64,000 nt of DNA from Verrucomicrobiota bacterium. GTDB taxonomy: Bacteria > Verrucomicrobiota > Verrucomicrobiia > Limisphaerales > UBA11320. The DNA lies in the NCBI GenBank assembly GCA_016199985.1, contig JACQFQ010000006.1, positions 124,001 through 188,000 of the forward strand, written 5' to 3'. Under the pieces are notes generated by a model. It made no database searches. It was not told the origin of the DNA and worked only from the letters and a program-made list of their open reading frames with translations. Made by a program: the position numbers and the translations under genes. Every line of letters starts with the position of its first letter. Positions within the stretch are counted from its first letter, which is position 1. Shown here one piece after another: positions 20,446 to 49,065 of this stretch.

Positions 20446-20530
20446 AGCGACCCCACTGTGAAACGCGTCGAATTAATCTGAGACTCGAAATTGCCCTCTT
20501 TCTGCCGCGAAGCGACTTAGTTCAATAGCT

Positions 20531-20552
20531 CTTATGCCGATCTCGGCATAAG
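20531..20552. repeat. Palindrome CTTATGCCGA/TCGGCATAAG
   Basis: Two perfect 10-bp arms separated by TC, followed by a T-rich stretch (GGGTTATTTTTATT). It could be an element end, a recombinase recognition site or a bidirectional terminator. It lies just upstream of the truncated recombinase. Confidence 0.5.
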
Positions 20553-20847
20553 GGTTATTTTTATTAGCCCAAGGGGCGGTGATCGGTTCACCAAGCGCCG
20601 CTTGGAGAATCGCAAGCCAATCATTGAATGGGGTAAGCCGGGGCGCGGGTTTGCCCTGCCTTCATTCTTGAAGTGTTTCGTGGCTTGGCGCGTCTCCAGC
20701 GCATTGCTTCAATACGAAATGGACCGACTCAAGGTTCAGAAAAAGTCTGTCGCACTCGATAAAAAAATCCCGCACCTCAGGTGCCGACGCCATTATTCCG
20801 CTTTGTGTTTTGCTCACAGAATTGTTCTTGCAAAGGCACTTTTCACT

Positions 20848-25795: not shown

Positions 25796-28700
25796 TCATT
25801 GGCCGGGCCAAAGCCTGGGGTTAAACTCCAGCAGCAAGGCTAGCCTCTGCCACGCCTGGGTATATGATATCTTCTCCAAGAGATGCAGGTCCCAGACTAT
25901 TTCTGCAAACCCCGTCTCAACAGCGTAAAGGTCGTCCGTCATAAAACCCTGCTCCCTCAGTATTTGGAAATCTATCTGTGAGACTGTAGTACGAAACCGC
26001 TGTCCGAGCTCTATGATGCGCTGTGCTATGGAGCGGACTGCTGGCGCTTCAACCACCAACTCGACGCGTTGAAGTTGCAGGACGGTGCCTTCGAGCGCGC
26101 CTGGAACCCGGGTTGCTGCGTTTTGCCCGCATTGCGCGGCTTGACTGACCGCGGGTGCCGCTCTTTGGAAAAGCGCACCAAATCGTGTAATAGCCGGCCC
26201 AGCTCTTGAAAGGGCCGGTCCATATGTTCGGGCAAGCTGTACGCCCCCGCCGATAGCGGCTAGAGCGGCACCGCACTTTACGGGATTGGCGGTGCATGAG
26301 TTGGGGATGAGTGTGTTTGGGAAGCCAGCGAGACCAGAAGGATCAACGTAGTTGACCGGATCGTTCAGCACGTAGGGGTACAGATTTGGGCCTTGCAACA
26401 TCTCGGCACCCGGAAGTGGGTCGCGTGAAAGCCACCGCCCTACCTCAGGATCGTAAGCCCGGTAGAGGGCCAGGGAAAGACTGGCCTCGGTGGACCAGAA
26501 CATGCCGGCGAACCCGAAGTCGGTCTCCATGTCACCGGTCAGCTTCGTCCGACGGCCATACGGATCGTAGGCGTAGCGCGCCCGCACATTGCCGCTACTG
26601 TCAGTCAACTCTCGGATGGAACCGAGATGGTCGCGGGTGTAGTAGTAGTTGAGAGTCAATGGTTGAGGGTTGAGAGTCGTGATTTGAACCCCTTGCGGGA
26701 AGAATCGTTTCGTCACTGCGCCGGCGGCATCCCGTTCCTCGCAAATTTCGCCGCCGCACCAGACAAACCGCCGAAACGACACTTCAGAGCCGTTCACCAG
26801 TTGCCGAATTCCGACCCTGCGGCTTAGACCATCGTAGGTAAACTCGGTGCGCTGGCTCCCAACAGTGACGACCGCAAGGCGATCTTCGGCGTCCCATTCG
26901 TTAGTGCGCGTGGTTCCGGGAGTAGTCGTGGTCTGGATCTCGTTCAGGGCGTTGTAAGTGGCGGTGTAGTTTGAGGTGCCGACCTGCTCGGTCAGGCGAT
27001 TGGCGGCGGTGTCATAGCTGTAGGCGAACGTGCTTAGGAGATGTCCCCCGTTGGTGACGGTGGCCGAAAGCAATTGATTGGCGGCGTCATAGCCGAAAGT
27101 GTGAAGATCGGGTGACTGCGCGCCAGCTTGTTGTGACCAGGTGGCAATGCGATTCGCGGCCACATCATGGCCGTAGAGGAATTCAGAAAGTGCCGTCGCC
27201 CCGACCTGATGAGTGATGCGTTGGAGCATCAGGTCCTGAAGATTGTTGCCGTAGTTCCGCCCCTCCGATTGGCCGTTCGGCAGTGATTTGGACACGAGTT
27301 GGGCGGTACTCCCGTCGTAGCCGTAAACGAAGGCGCCCAGCGCATTGGTGACGCCAACCAGGCGTCCGGCGACGTCGAACATCATCGCCGAATCCACCCC
27401 ATTGATGGCACGGTGAACTGGCCGGCACAGTTCATCGTAAGTGTAGGTGATCGTGTCATTGGGAAGCGGACCGTCCACACTGGCCAAGGCTCCAGCGCCC
27501 AAAGCCGCAACGCCGGTGATAGGATTGTACGAATATAGCGTGGTCCCAGTGCCATCGGTCATGGAAGCAGGGCGCTTATAATTAAGTTCGTAGGTGAAAC
27601 TGACGCCCGGCGTCACGATGGCTGCGCTGCCGTAAGCCATGGACTTGACCGTATCGTCGCGATTCCAGGTGAACTCGGTGACCTGATCCTTTTCGTCAAT
27701 GATCCGTTTCAAACGGCTGCTGGCGCTCTCATAAACATAGGAAACCTGCGAGCCATTGCTGTACTTCTTGGCGATGTTGCGTCCTTGCACGTCCGTGAGC
27801 CAGGAGGTCGTGCGGCCCAGCGGGTCGGTCAGGCTTTTCATCTGTCCGCAGCGGCACCATTCAAAGCGCGTCACCCGGCCCAACGGGTCCGTTTGCTTCT
27901 TCACTTGCCGCATGTTGTCGTGTTCGAGCAGCGTCTGCCGCCCCGCTCGATCCCGGAACGTGACCAAGTCCAGATTGGTGTAGGTCAACTGCTCGAAAGT
28001 CGAATCGGGGTGCGTGATTTTAGTAATCCGGTCCATCACGTCGTAATCGAAGGTCACCGTGTAACCGGTAACGCCGGTCAGAACCCGTACCCGGCCAAAA
28101 AAATCGTACGAGGCCAATACGCGGTCGCTGATTCCCGGCAGCGGCCCGTCCACGCCAATGAGATAGTGGTCGGTGGAGTAGGTATAGGTCGTGGTCTCGC
28201 CTTTGGGATTGCTGGCGGTTAGCAATTGGCCGAGGGCGTTGTAGGTAAAGGTATTGGTCTGGCCGTCGGCCCCAGCCGTAGTGAGCGGCAGATGTTGGGT
28301 GTTGTACGTCGCACGAAACAGCAACTCGTTGTTCCCAGCCCGCGTCTGCCGCACTTCGAGCAGGTCAATGCCGTTGGTCGCATAGAGGTAGCTGAACGTC
28401 CGCCCAAGGGGATCAGCCGAGTTGGTCAGGTGGCCAAAGGCGTTGTAGCCGTTGGTATAAAGCTGCGTCTGCCCGTCGTCGAGCACGCGGCCAATGAATG
28501 TGGGCAGGTTGTTGGAGCCGACGACTGTGACTGCGTATTGCCCCGCGTAGTTGAAATAGACGCGCCGTTCCAGGGGTTCCTTGGTGCTTTCAAGGATCCC
28601 CGAGGTGAGCCCAGTATTTTCGGCGTGCAGCCAGTGATAGATTTTTGCCTTTGTGTAATTGCCACCGCTGCTCGCCATCGCCGTCCGGCTCCAAAGATAC

Positions 28701-30922
28701 GTGTTGCGCGCGGCGAGAACCGCGCCGATACCAGGCGACATCCCCGTGGGAATTTCGGCGGAAGGCGCGGTATCCGGGATGCCGAGAGTGTTGGACTGAT
28801 TGTACTCGACGCGTTCCTTGGTGCCGTCGGGATAGGAGATTTCCGCAATGCGCGTGTTGGTCCCCCCAGGCGGCCCGCCAGACAGGGTGAAGAAGGTGGT
28901 GCCGTATGGCGTTTGCATGAGCTGGACAATGTCGGTATAAAGGGTGGGAGGGAGAGGGGCGGGGGGTGGGAAGAGGCAGCCCGTGGCGCTGTCCGGCTGA
29001 TACAAAAAGCGCGACTCCAGCCCGAGGACGTCCGTGATTTTTGCGAGGAAATCATGATAGAGATATTCTACATGATTGGTATTGGTATCCCCGGGGCAGA
29101 GGGTGCCTTTGGAAACGGCCAAATGGTCATACTCAAAAGTGGCGAAGCGCCCAAACGGATCGGTGACTTTGGTAATCAGAAAGCTGTTGGTGGGGTGGTC
29201 GTAGGAAATGGTCGTCACCTGGCCAATCGCATCGGTGAGGGCGACGAGTGTCAGGTCCCCGTCGTACGTGAGGGTGACGGCGTTGCCGGCGGGGTCAATC
29301 ACTTGCGAGAGCAGGAAACCCAGACTGCCGCTGAGGGGGCCAAAGAGTTTCTTCGAGCCATCGGGATAGATCAGCTCGTAGGTGTTCGCGCTGAGTCGCT
29401 TGAGCAAGGTCTGGTCGTACTGGTTCGGGGCGTAAGTTTGAGTGTTCGTGTTGAACCCGGAGAAGACGCGCCCGCCGCCGCCACCAACAATGAGCTTGGG
29501 AGACCCCGAAGAAAAGTTGAGGGCTTCGTTCCAATCGTGCGTCCACTTCGGGCCAAGGAGTTCATCGGTTTGAGCCGCCGGCTGAAGGTAGTCCCGTTGA
29601 TTGTAACGGACTGTGAAGTACACAGGCGGACCAACGGGCGGCGTATAGCCCACCGGTGTATCCCTGATCTGCAAATTGGCGAGCATGAGATGCACGCTGC
29701 AAACGGCCATGCCCATCCCGCAACCCGAACCCGTGCAGGAGGCGGTCTGGTGGTTGTTGCACGCGTACTGATCCGGGTCGTTGCCGCCCGTTAGGCCCTT
29801 GCCCCAGATAGCTTCGCCTTCCTTTGTGTCAACGCTCCGCCAACCGCGCGGCAAGTCGCCCGGCGGGATGAGGAAATAACCGCTGGTCTCGGCTTCAAGC
29901 GCCTGACGGGTCGCCCACAACTCAGTCCCAAACGTTGGGTCTTTCACGAGAAAGCGTTCGCCGTCCTGGCGTACGAGCGCCGCATAATGACCGGCCTTCC
30001 AATGCACGACGGAAGGCACAACAAATGGTAGGGACGCGTTCCACCGCGTCCGATTATCGCTTTTATTTGGGGACGCGCTGGAACGCGTCCCTACCTGTCC
30101 CCTGAACGCCATCTGATAATACAGCCCCACTTTCTTCGAAAGTTCGGCCACTTGCGTCAGCGAGAAGCCTTTTTGCGTCGAGACGGAATTGAAAATCTCA
30201 ATGAACGCGTTTGTGGAACGCGACACGAGAAGTTGTTGATCCGACCTGAGGATACTCTGCAACGCCATCGGCCCGCACTTAAACGATACCCCCGGTTGGT
30301 TCCGCATCATCCAAAGCGAGTCCGAGGCGATATTAATCCGTTCGCTCGTTCCGCCGATGAACGTGCGTTTCTCGACGGATTTTAGCAGCGCCTCCAATTC
30401 GGTCATCCGCCCCAACCGTGAATAAAGGCCGGCCAATTCGCACACAGCCCGATCCGCGAGAAACTTACCTTTGGCATCTGTGGCCTTTTGCCCCAGCGCC
30501 CATGCGTCTTGCCACGCCTCCAACGCACGAGAGTAATACGCCGTGTTGTAATAATTGAGACCAAGACAGGTGAGCAGCCCCGCACGCCAGGGCGACTGGG
30601 GATGCCTTTCCAAAAACCCCGTTAGGCTGGCGAAATCATCAGGGCTGCTCCGTTTGGCATAACCGAGCAGTGCGGCCGCCAGGGCGGCGTTCTCCTCCCC
30701 ACTTGGCTCGCCACCAATCGGCACCAGCGGTTCTTCAAAAACTCTCGCGCGAAAGATCTCTTGGGTCGTTGGATTGGCGGAGAATTCCAGTTCCGTTTTC
30801 GGAGGCTGGACCTTGGGAAGGGTTCGGTTCACCCGTGTCGGTTTGTCCGCTGCGTCAGCAGCGGGAGAGAACGACGGTCCCATAACCAGCAGCGTTGCCA
30901 GGAGGAATCGAAGGGTTTTCAT
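25796..30922 (-). CDS. RHS-repeat protein with N-terminal C39-like cysteine peptidase domain
   Basis: Starting at the ATG at 30922 (signal peptide MKTLRFLLATLLVMGPSFSP) the protein has ~1708 residues. A helical, TPR-like region (~50-200) precedes a papain-like C39 peptidase domain with Cys in FKCGPMALQS, His in KAGHYAALV and Asp in LVKDPTFG. A long array of YD/RHS repeats follows (TFTYNALGQLLTASNPKGET, TYTYDELCRPVHRAI) and the conserved RHS core (DHLGSIRELTDSSG, SLALYRAYDPEVGRWLSRDP, DPVNYVDPSGL). The last ~150 residues form a variable tail I do not recognise. RHS shells often encapsulate toxins that a protease releases; a toxin role for the tail is inference, and no immunity gene follows directly. 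Two repeat sequences are embedded in frame at 26645-26675 and 30027-30095. Confidence 0.87.
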   Translation of the reverse strand: MKTLRFLLATLLVMGPSFSPAADAADKPTRVNRTLPKVQPPKTELEFSANPTTQEIFRARVFEEPLVPIGGEPSGEENAALAAALLGYAKRSSPDDFASLTGFLERHPQSPWRAGLLTCLGLNYYNTAYYSRALEAWQDAWALGQKATDAKGKFLADRAVCELAGLYSRLGRMTELEALLKSVEKRTFIGGTSERINIASDSLWMMRNQPGVSFKCGPMALQSILRSDQQLLVSRSTNAFIEIFNSVSTQKGFSLTQVAELSKKVGLYYQMAFRGQVGTRSSASPNKSDNRTRWNASLPFVVPSVVHWKAGHYAALVRQDGERFLVKDPTFGTELWATRQALEAETSGYFLIPPGDLPRGWRSVDTKEGEAIWGKGLTGGNDPDQYACNNHQTASCTGSGCGMGMAVCSVHLMLANLQIRDTPVGYTPPVGPPVYFTVRYNQRDYLQPAAQTDELLGPKWTHDWNEALNFSSGSPKLIVGGGGGRVFSGFNTNTQTYAPNQYDQTLLKRLSANTYELIYPDGSKKLFGPLSGSLGFLLSQVIDPAGNAVTLTYDGDLTLVALTDAIGQVTTISYDHPTNSFLITKVTDPFGRFATFEYDHLAVSKGTLCPGDTNTNHVEYLYHDFLAKITDVLGLESRFLYQPDSATGCLFPPPAPLPPTLYTDIVQLMQTPYGTTFFTLSGGPPGGTNTRIAEISYPDGTKERVEYNQSNTLGIPDTAPSAEIPTGMSPGIGAVLAARNTYLWSRTAMASSGGNYTKAKIYHWLHAENTGLTSGILESTKEPLERRVYFNYAGQYAVTVVGSNNLPTFIGRVLDDGQTQLYTNGYNAFGHLTNSADPLGRTFSYLYATNGIDLLEVRQTRAGNNELLFRATYNTQHLPLTTAGADGQTNTFTYNALGQLLTASNPKGETTTYTYSTDHYLIGVDGPLPGISDRVLASYDFFGRVRVLTGVTGYTVTFDYDVMDRITKITHPDSTFEQLTYTNLDLVTFRDRAGRQTLLEHDNMRQVKKQTDPLGRVTRFEWCRCGQMKSLTDPLGRTTSWLTDVQGRNIAKKYSNGSQVSYVYESASSRLKRIIDEKDQVTEFTWNRDDTVKSMAYGSAAIVTPGVSFTYELNYKRPASMTDGTGTTLYSYNPITGVAALGAGALASVDGPLPNDTITYTYDELCRPVHRAINGVDSAMMFDVAGRLVGVTNALGAFVYGYDGSTAQLVSKSLPNGQSEGRNYGNNLQDLMLQRITHQVGATALSEFLYGHDVAANRIATWSQQAGAQSPDLHTFGYDAANQLLSATVTNGGHLLSTFAYSYDTAANRLTEQVGTSNYTATYNALNEIQTTTTPGTTRTNEWDAEDRLAVVTVGSQRTEFTYDGLSRRVGIRQLVNGSEVSFRRFVWCGGEICEERDAAGAVTKRFFPQGVQITTLNPQPLTLNYYYTRDHLGSIRELTDSSGNVRARYAYDPYGRRTKLTGDMETDFGFAGMFWSTEASLSLALYRAYDPEVGRWLSRDPLPGAEMLQGPNLYPYVLNDPVNYVDPSGLAGFPNTLIPNSCTANPVKCGAALAAIGGGVQLARTYGPALSRAGPAITRFGALFQRAAPAVSQAAQCGQNAATRVPGALEGTVLQLQRVELVVEAPAVRSIAQRIIELGQRFRTTVSQIDFQILREQGFMTDDLYAVETGFAEIVWDLHLLEKISYTQAWQRLALLLEFNPRLWPGQ
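26645..26675. repeat. Low-complexity CTCAACC-type repeat inside the RHS gene
   Basis: On the coding strand GACTCTCAAC, CCTCAACC and GACTCTCAAC follow one another and encode TLNPQPLTLN between GVQIT and YYYTRDHL, where RHS proteins normally have only a few residues. It is an in-frame insertion of a simple repeat. Confidence 0.55.
30027..30095. repeat. 69-bp inverted-repeat (REP/MITE-like) element inside the C39 domain
   Basis: Two 25-bp arms (GGTAGGGACGCGTTCCACCG... and its complement at 30071-30095, one mismatch) enclose a 19-base loop. The length is a multiple of three, and it encodes an in-frame insert (GQVGTRSSASPNKSDNRT region) just before the catalytic His. Confidence 0.75.
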
Positions 30923-30942
30923 GGTGGGTATTCGTTCGGCGA

Positions 30943-31233
30943 TCACGGCCAGCGCAGGCGATAGAAGCGCTGCGGGAGGGCTGGGGCGTTAGTGTCGGTG
31001 AAGAGATAGCGCGGCGTGGCGGGGCCGAGGAAATACCAGTCCACAAGGTTGGTCGTGAATTCCACGCTGAACGCGCCGACGAAGGAATTGGTTAACGCGA
31101 AGGTCACGTTCGTGCCGCTGAAGATGTTCGTGATGTTGCTCAACGTATTGGTTGCCCCGTCGTTCACCACTTGTGCGCGCAGGGGCGGAGCAGCCACCAC
31201 CAACACCGCCAGCAAGGAGAGAGACGCTTTCAT
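30943..31233 (-). CDS. Small secreted protein consisting of a lone C-terminal module
   Basis: The 96-residue product has a signal peptide (MKASLSLLAVLVVAAPPLRA) and then a beta-rich module ending QRFYRLRWP. The same end (RFYRVRAFP, RFFRLRIP) closes the giant proteins encoded at 21815 and 31301, so this gene encodes little more than that tail module. Its stop lies 20 bases upstream of the C39-RHS start, so the two are likely co-transcribed. The upstream start codons in the same frame are ignored because only this one gives a leader. Confidence 0.65.
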   Translation of the reverse strand: MKASLSLLAVLVVAAPPLRAQVVNDGATNTLSNITNIFSGTNVTFALTNSFVGAFSVEFTTNLVDWYFLGPATPRYLFTDTNAPALPQRFYRLRWP

Positions 31234-31300: not shown

Positions 31301-33286
31301 CTACGGGATGCGCAGCCGGAAAAACCTGCTGCCGTTACCGATGGGAAGAGTGCGCGGATCGTCTGAACCGGGAACCGGAGTCCAAAGTGCGTTGGCATCC
31401 AACGTGGACGCGCTTTCCAAAATGGCGGTGGCAGACTCCGCTGGCCAGGACAACAGCATAGAGTTGCCCGAAAGCTGCATCTGCAATTTGAGCGCAGGCA
31501 CCGCTCGAACCAGCGCAAGGCTGTGAAAGTCTCCCCCCGTCACCGCCACCACACCATTCAATCCAGCCGGCACGGTGCTTTGACCGGCGCGGTTGTCTCC
31601 CCACGCCACGACGGTGCCGTTTGATTTGAGCGCCAGGCTGTGAAAGCCTCCCCCCGCCACCGCGACCACGCCGTTCAAATTAGCCGGCACGGTGGTTTGG
31701 TCAAAATTGTTCCATCCTCCCCACGCCACGACGGTGCCGTCGGATTTGAGCGCCAGGCTGTGATAGAATCCCGCCGCCACCGCGACCACGCCTGCCAGTC
31801 CAGCCGGCACTGTGGCAGGAACGTAGGCTGAACCGTTCCAAATGACTTCCCACGCCACGACTGCGCCATCGGATTTGAGCGCCAGGCTGTGATCGGCTCC
31901 CGCCGCCACGGCGACCACGCCAGTTAATACAGCCGGCACGGTGGCAGGAACGTTGGCTGAACCGTTATAAATTTTTCCCCATGCCGCGACTGTGCCGTCG
32001 GATTTGAGCGCCAGGTTGTGCGTGCCTCCCGCCGCAACCGCCATCACGCCAGTCAATCCAGCCGGCACGGTGCTTTGGCCATAAGAATTGTCTCCCCACG
32101 CCACGACTGTGCCGTTGGATTTGAGCGCCAGGCTGTGCAAGCTTCCCTCCGCCACGGCGACCACGTCAGTCAATCCAGCCGGCACGGTGACAGGAACGTA
32201 GCCACCAATGCCATTGTTCCAAATTCTTCCCCAGGCCACGACCGTGCCGTTGGATTTGAGCGTCAGGCCGTGACCGCTTCCCCCCGCCACGGCGACCACG
32301 TCATTCAATCCAACCGGCTCGGTGCTTTGGCCATAGTCGTTATTTCCCCACGCCACGACTGTGCCGTCGGATTTGAGCGCCAGGCTGTGATAGATTCCCG
32401 CCGCCACCGCGACCACGCCAGTCAATCCAGCCGGCACGGTGCTCTGGCCCTCATAGTTCCGTCCCCACGCCACGACTGTGCCGTCGGATTTAAGCGCCAG
32501 ACTGTGATAGCCTCCCTCCGCCACCGCGACCATGCCTGTCATTCCAGCGGGCATGGGCACGATGCTTTGGCCAGAAGCCTCGGATCCCCACGCCAGGATT
32601 GTGCCATCGGATTTGAGCGCCAGGCTGTGATAGATTCCCGCCGCCACGGCGACCACGCCAGTTAATCCAGCCGGGAGGGTGCTTTGGCCCGAACCGTTAT
32701 TTCCCCACGCCACCACTGTGCTGTCTGATTTGAGCGCGAGGCCGTGAGAGCCTCCTGCCGCCACCGCGACCACGCCAGTCAATCCAGCCGGCACTGTGGC
32801 AGGAGCGTAGCCTAAACCGTTCAAAATTGATCCCCACGCCACGATTGTGCCGTTGGACTGGAGCGCCAGGTTTTGAGCGTATCCCGCCGCCACCGCGACC
32901 ACGCCAGTCAATCCAGCGGGCACGGTGCTCTGGCCCTCATAGTTCCGTCCCCACGCCACGACTGTGCCATCGGATTTGAGCGCAATGCTGTGAGAGCTTC
33001 CTGCCCCTACCGCAACCACGCCATTCAATCCAGCCGGCACAGTGCTTTGGTGCGATCCGTTGTCTGCCCACGCGTTGTCTGCCCACGCCAGGACTGTGCC
33101 GTCGGATTTGAGCGCCAGGCTGTGAGCGCCTCCCGCCGCAACTTGCGAAAAGCGCGTGCCTGGTTCGAGGTAAGAAATGACGTGGTTGCCCCAACCGACG
33201 ACCGTGCCCGCGCCGGCCAGCGCATTCAGGGAAGCCAGCGCCAGCAGCACAACGAGACTGGTGTTTTTGTCTGTTTTGTTTTTCAC
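31301..33286 (-). CDS. Secreted RCC1-repeat beta-propeller protein
   Basis: A 661-residue protein read from a GTG, with a leader (KNTSLVVLLALASLNALAGA). About a dozen RCC1-like repeats of ~45-50 residues follow, each with HSLALKSDGTVVAWG, GQSTVPAGLTGVVAVAAG and similar wording. They should form one or two seven-bladed propellers. The C-terminus is a ~70-residue module ending SRFFRLRIP. The repeats are very similar at DNA level, as expected from recent expansion. Bacterial RCC1-repeat proteins of this kind are probably extracellular binding proteins; no enzymatic motif is present. Confidence 0.85.
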   Translation of the reverse strand: MKNKTDKNTSLVVLLALASLNALAGAGTVVGWGNHVISYLEPGTRFSQVAAGGAHSLALKSDGTVLAWADNAWADNGSHQSTVPAGLNGVVAVGAGSSHSIALKSDGTVVAWGRNYEGQSTVPAGLTGVVAVAAGYAQNLALQSNGTIVAWGSILNGLGYAPATVPAGLTGVVAVAAGGSHGLALKSDSTVVAWGNNGSGQSTLPAGLTGVVAVAAGIYHSLALKSDGTILAWGSEASGQSIVPMPAGMTGMVAVAEGGYHSLALKSDGTVVAWGRNYEGQSTVPAGLTGVVAVAAGIYHSLALKSDGTVVAWGNNDYGQSTEPVGLNDVVAVAGGSGHGLTLKSNGTVVAWGRIWNNGIGGYVPVTVPAGLTDVVAVAEGSLHSLALKSNGTVVAWGDNSYGQSTVPAGLTGVMAVAAGGTHNLALKSDGTVAAWGKIYNGSANVPATVPAVLTGVVAVAAGADHSLALKSDGAVVAWEVIWNGSAYVPATVPAGLAGVVAVAAGFYHSLALKSDGTVVAWGGWNNFDQTTVPANLNGVVAVAGGGFHSLALKSNGTVVAWGDNRAGQSTVPAGLNGVVAVTGGDFHSLALVRAVPALKLQMQLSGNSMLLSWPAESATAILESASTLDANALWTPVPGSDDPRTLPIGNGSRFFRLRIP

Positions 33287-49018: not shown

Positions 49019-49065
49019 GGGGTGAATTCCTCTTCCGGTCTTCGGTGAGAAGAGGGAATCACCCC
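49019..49065 (+). ncRNA. 5' hairpin in front of the plasmid-type gene at 49088
   Basis: GGGGTGAATTCCTCTTC pairs with GAAGAGGGAATCACCCC, with one bulge and one mismatch, around a 13-base loop. It ends just before the ribosome-binding site (ACGGAGAAAG). Confidence 0.55.

Follow-up and report, generated by a model that had tools for sequence, protein, structure and literature searches.

The locus described here raises the question of whether a palindrome that is read without a stop inside a peptidase-like domain is a captured mobile element and, if so, what its capture has given to the protein. In the window, by which we mean the whole stretch of 64,000 nucleotides that was analysed, a 1716-aa ORF runs without interruption through a 69-bp inverted repeat, which encodes VGTRSSASPNKSDNRTRWNASLP (approximately residues 285-307) and directly precedes VPSVVHWKAGHYAAL, the segment that contains the catalytic His. 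An inverted-repeat search and folding of the DNA both confirmed what a preliminary description of this DNA had read there, namely two 25-bp arms with one mismatch around a 19-base loop (Table 1). As single-stranded DNA the element folds at -30.4 kcal/mol, compared with -11.5 +/- 2.3 kcal/mol for shuffled sequences (z = -8.35; none of 200 shuffles folded as well), and no chance matches are expected in the window for the 20-mer given in that description. Both arms form complete REP units, with GTAG immediately before a hairpin whose stem is 7 bp long (GGACGCG-TTCCAC-CGCGTCC), and the GTAG tetranucleotide adjoining a short hairpin by which REPs are recognized is present in both units. The two units lie head to head with GTAG outermost and a spacer between them, which is the anatomy of a REP doublet. 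GTAG REP dimers in this head-to-head arrangement were defined in PMC3733652, and the arrangement is called REPIN in PMC3116915. No target-site duplication was established at the 69-bp element.

Table 1 Positions in the window of the palindromic element, its parts and its host gene
Feature	Position	Strand	Evidence
Host ORF, 1716 aa: N-terminal region, C39-like domain, RHS repeats	25796..30946	-	ORF, repeat and domain evidence
C39-like (papain-fold) domain with insert	29742..30386	-	Approximate bounds, those of the modelled stretch
REP doublet (REPIN-like), 69 bp, in frame	30027..30095	.	Inverted repeat, fold z, family dispersed in relatives
First arm, 25 nt, 96% complementary to the second	30027..30051		Inverted-repeat search
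First REP unit	30028..30051	+	Direct reading and pattern match, 0 mismatches
GTAG of first unit	30028..30031		
Stem GGACGCG of first unit	30032..30038		
Loop TTCCAC of first unit			
Stem CGCGTCC of first unit	30045..30051		
AT-rich spacer, 19 nt, joining the two REP units	30052..30070	.	Inverted-repeat search
Second arm, 25 nt	30071..30095		Inverted-repeat search
Second REP unit, inverted	30071..30094	-	Direct reading and pattern match, 0 mismatches
Stem-loop of second unit	30071..30090		
CTAC of second unit, complement of GTAG	30091..30094		

The element is alone in its own genome. No second copy with up to two mismatches was found in the 6.83 Mb, BLAST of the element against this genome gave nothing beyond weak short matches, the GTAGGGACG...GTCCCTAC pair did not occur elsewhere in it, and when 800 kb of the genome were scanned, none of the nine inverted repeats with arms of at least 18 belonged to the family. 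The arm GTAGGGACGCGTTCCANCGCGTC, searched as a 23-nt sequence with at most one mismatch, was present in 11 of the 58 genomes searched from the order, its own included, with 31 matches in G044 and 68 in G055, the richest genomes, whereas the reversed pattern, used as a control, gave no matches. At least 119 arm stretches were found in named Verrucomicrobiota and, among the titles listed, several belong to Limisphaerales or subdivision 3. From loci of relatives, 73 complete doublets with GTAG outermost were collected; their arms are near constant, in part because they were retrieved by exact arm, and their spacers differ in both sequence and length. Many-copy dispersal is thus a property of the family, as seen in G044 and G055, but not of the window's own genome. 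The repeat element proposed in the preliminary description belongs to a dispersed family of palindromes, although the search that it called for within the genome yielded nothing and the copies came from relatives; the sequence is absent elsewhere only as far as its own genome is concerned. That the inverted repeat arose by chance or by local duplication, with no tie to a mobile element, would fit the sole copy in its own genome, but the matches to the arm in other genomes, as many as 68 in one against none for the reversed control, refute this explanation, and we give it practically no weight.

Several other repeats were recorded in the same genome. Another inverted repeat, with 21-bp arms and a 29-nt loop, lies in frame in a 1286-aa ORF (L338:7727-7797, G000:C68); in a CRISPR-like array, a repeat containing CCGCGCTCAGTTGAGCGCGG recurs regularly between spacers that differ (L360:1-560, G000:C46); and the end of one contig (L373:1-273, G000:C23) holds a 133-bp inverted repeat that resembles a folded-back 16S rRNA fragment and is probably an assembly artefact. 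The window itself holds two more inverted repeats, whose arms measure 16-17 bp (49019-49065 and 20524-20559). Adjoining the host gene on the minus strand is a 661-aa ORF (31301-33286) of GTVVAWG...GLTGVVAVAAG-type repeats, which we take to resemble RCC1-like repeats.

The domain that received the palindrome matches Pfam Peptidase_C39 weakly (19.7 bits, under the cut-off of 22), and the same profile matches 40 of 44 homologues at E <= 0.1. Across the 44 sequences C40, H136 and D152 are invariant, and the Cys, His and Asp are retained in the window domain. Its structural model (mean pLDDT 87) has C39 peptidases as best PDB matches in Foldseek (6mpz, 3b79 and 5xe8; E 1e-4 to 1e-3, with modest TM-scores), and the invariant residues together with these matches identify the papain-like fold with Cys, His and Asp that is expected of a C39 peptidase. 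The ORF, Pfam and Foldseek results therefore uphold the placement of the insert in a C39-like domain just before the catalytic His. The insert is modelled with low confidence, with block means of 61 and 57, and lies between strands 94-98 and 128-132; it is probably a disordered loop ahead of the catalytic His, and as modelled it looks tolerated rather than destructive for the putative peptidase. The insert is presumably translated, as judged from frame conservation.

The loop between FR and VPSVVHW was compared in about 45 homologues of the C39-RHS region, nearly all of which have about 5 residues there. The loop is long in five, namely the window gene, L241, L238, L239 and L242. In the window gene, the 23 residues encoded by the element take the place of about 3 of those in the 5-residue orthologue loop; the 23 or so in-frame residues of the preliminary description are indeed encoded without a stop, but the net gain over orthologues is about 20. 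The insert is missing from most orthologues and is not conserved in distant homologues, so its capture, as first proposed, withstood the comparison.

L241, which belongs to another family, carries a related doublet with the same length, frame and boundaries as the window insert. The two share 44 of 50 arm positions and 12 of 19 spacer positions in genes whose flanks are about 62-71% identical, and their stems differ by one compensating change (C-G to G-C). None of 128 comparisons with further spacers from the family gave so high a spacer identity (the best reached 11; shuffle p ~0.007). The L238 loop has exactly the same length as that of the window gene. These likenesses would be expected if a single insertion had occurred before the window gene and L241 diverged, with subsequent loss in L240 and L252 and replacement or overwriting in L238 and L239. 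However, when the gene tree is built with the insert columns excluded, L239, the closest, and L238 join the window gene (99/94, 100/98), the insert-free L240 and L252 fall between the window gene and L241, and a clade of the window gene with L241 is rejected (p = 0.0002). A single insertion would also require several losses or replacements, and similar spacers recur among family copies in unrelated genes. We therefore regard a single ancestral insertion as a possible but less probable history, and because insert-free genes intervene and the joint clade is rejected, two separate captures at the two loops are the simpler reading. Near-identical arms at shared sites (21-24 of 24, with gene flanks of 54-86%) were also considered as DNA-level conservation; this was rejected, since the loci were retrieved by exact arm match and similar spacers occur in unrelated genes, so that separate insertions suffice. 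As the family is otherwise absent from its own genome and the closest relatives of the gene are in other families, the gene may have been carrying its insert when it entered this genome.

The remaining long loops are of other kinds. The DNA of the L238 loop is unrelated to that of the window insert and folds weakly (z -2.5), and its other matches are weak (E 0.07); the long loop of L239 (G085) before VPSVVHW is EPRRARSGEHDGNGTGH, encoded by DNA that forms no palindrome and is not an obvious repeat; and the L242 loop consists of a simple AAATCG-type repeat that was also matched in G029, G031 and G004. With a weak fold, a non-palindromic sequence and a simple repeat, respectively, these three inserts were not established as clear mobile elements.

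Copies of the family also lie in frame in other genes. When the 240 bp flanking every doublet on each side were scored for codon usage, strand and frame agreed in all 12 doublets whose flanks both scored as coding, against a chance expectation of one third. Inserts were found inside profile-matched regions of LigA, AroA, NuoM, MutS, FeoB, PurL, ApbE, an RND permease and a P-type ATPase, the last carrying two, and the peptide encoded by the window element is also present in unrelated enzymes. The loop might conversely be a functional, selected part of the protein, such as a substrate-binding or regulatory loop, with the DNA palindrome as a by-product; the kept frame and the compensating stem change between the window gene and L241 are in keeping with this. 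We consider it improbable, because most orthologues do not have the insert, unrelated sequences fill the same loop in L238, L239 and L242, the same peptide occurs in unrelated enzymes and the insert is a low-confidence region of the model. Nothing shows that the insert is favoured rather than tolerated. The suggestion that such elements drive domain growth holds insofar as many family copies are in frame in real genes, but what is gained is a low-confidence loop or linker and no domain; the phrase is too strong, and growth is confined to loops and linkers.

LigA offers a parallel. In 36 LigA proteins compared at the linker between IPLEL and LLEVRGEA, the linker has exactly 7 residues in 21, 11 in one and 22-36 in 14, and all 14 long linkers are in frame with no stop; this sample is biased, as the query bore an insert, best matches were taken and some loci were chosen for length. 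A long insert is present in roughly one-eighth of full-length LigA matches, an estimate made by eye from match length. Strong palindromes (z -4.6 to -12.8) occupy 12 of the 14 long inserts (L294, L296, L299, L302, L303, L305, L306, L308, L318, L322, L323 and L162), and each takes the place of the native 7-residue linker. At least six palindrome types occur there, in different genomes of the order, including GTAGGGACGCG, GACAGGC, GTAGCGGC, GTAGCGTAGGC, CACAGAG and CGCCGAG, and the LigA tree needs seven changes between filled and empty states, three of them forced by well-supported branches. On balance, we lean towards the view that certain short beta-hairpin linkers, those of LigA and of the C39 domain of RHS proteins in this order, are recurrent landing sites at which the native linker has been replaced in frame by many unrelated palindrome families, each independently, which would make mobile DNA a regular source of new loops even in essential enzymes.

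The frames of these copies also bear on whether the insert is present in the protein at all. Hairpin inserts that are skipped are known from mitochondria, and the window hairpin is very stable, so ribosomes might skip the palindrome, or it might be cut out of the mRNA, and the protein would then never contain it. Removal or skipping would require neither an intact frame nor freedom from stops, yet both are seen in all 12 copies that could be scored and in each of the 14 long LigA inserts, which makes this explanation very improbable.

Y1 transposase genes are common in this order. Among the Y1 loci read, none was a RAYT flanked by the REP family of the window element, the flanks being other GTAG hairpins or none, and a single REP copy of the family lies about 1 kb from one Y1 gene. 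Y1 genes in L199, L202, L205, L236 and others are flanked by several other GTAG hairpin families, for example GTAGCCGTGGGTTT and GTAGCGCAGA; REP-RAYT pairs therefore exist in this order. TnpA-REP transposases recognise GTAG plus the hairpin as their substrate (PMC8266576).

We conclude that the element is very probably a non-autonomous GTAG REP doublet of the REPIN kind, of a family dispersed in the order, of which one copy entered a short variable loop of the C39-like domain, replaced a few residues and was read through, adding about 20 residues of disordered loop. The doublet would have been mobilised by a RAYT-type (TnpA-REP) single-strand transposase in some genome of the order and would have landed in a permissive short variable loop joining two beta strands of the domain. 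Read-through would have followed because two of the three frames in which an arm can be entered are open and the overall change in length preserves the frame. Purifying selection, and not targeting, would account for the survivors being in frame and in loops.

The window element belongs to an already described kind, the in-frame GTAG REP dimers, and is not a new element type. REP dimers inside genes that encode 20-30 residues were published in 2013; intragenic GTAG repeats are most numerous in Opitutus terrae (Verrucomicrobia), where their hosts include DNA ligase and uvrA, and two Xanthomonas recB genes carry REPs at about the same site (PMC3733652). By anatomy, not by consensus sequence, the window family resembles the O. 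terrae dimers in having GTAG plus a hairpin, head to head, in coding genes, with 20-30 residues encoded, a DNA ligase host and the same phylum; it differs in order and host gene, the window element being single in its genome and in an RHS protein. With the REPINs of Pseudomonas fluorescens (PMC3116915) and the BIMEs of Escherichia coli (PMC8266576), it shares two inverted REP units with GTAG outermost, dispersal and non-autonomy; those elements, however, lie mostly outside genes and have been linked to an identified RAYT, whereas among the Y1 loci read no RAYT could be tied to the window family. An older parallel is provided by the Rickettsia palindromic elements (PMC10969869), mobile palindromes that lie in frame in unrelated genes and are tolerated as extra residues, and an in-frame palindrome in coding genes is likewise what the window element and its relatives present. 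That likeness is one of description, as the Rickettsia elements measure about 150 bp (69 bp in the window), belong to other sequence families and occur in intracellular Alphaproteobacteria. No earlier description of the same linkers being filled repeatedly by different palindrome families was found in the cited REP and Rickettsia palindromic element literature.

In summary, mobile palindromes appear to become protein sequence in free-living bacteria, and the C39 loop presents empty and filled orthologues at one site. In addition, the LigA linker, with at least six palindrome types, would let one ask whether such sites are targeted or tolerated and whether the new loops get used.
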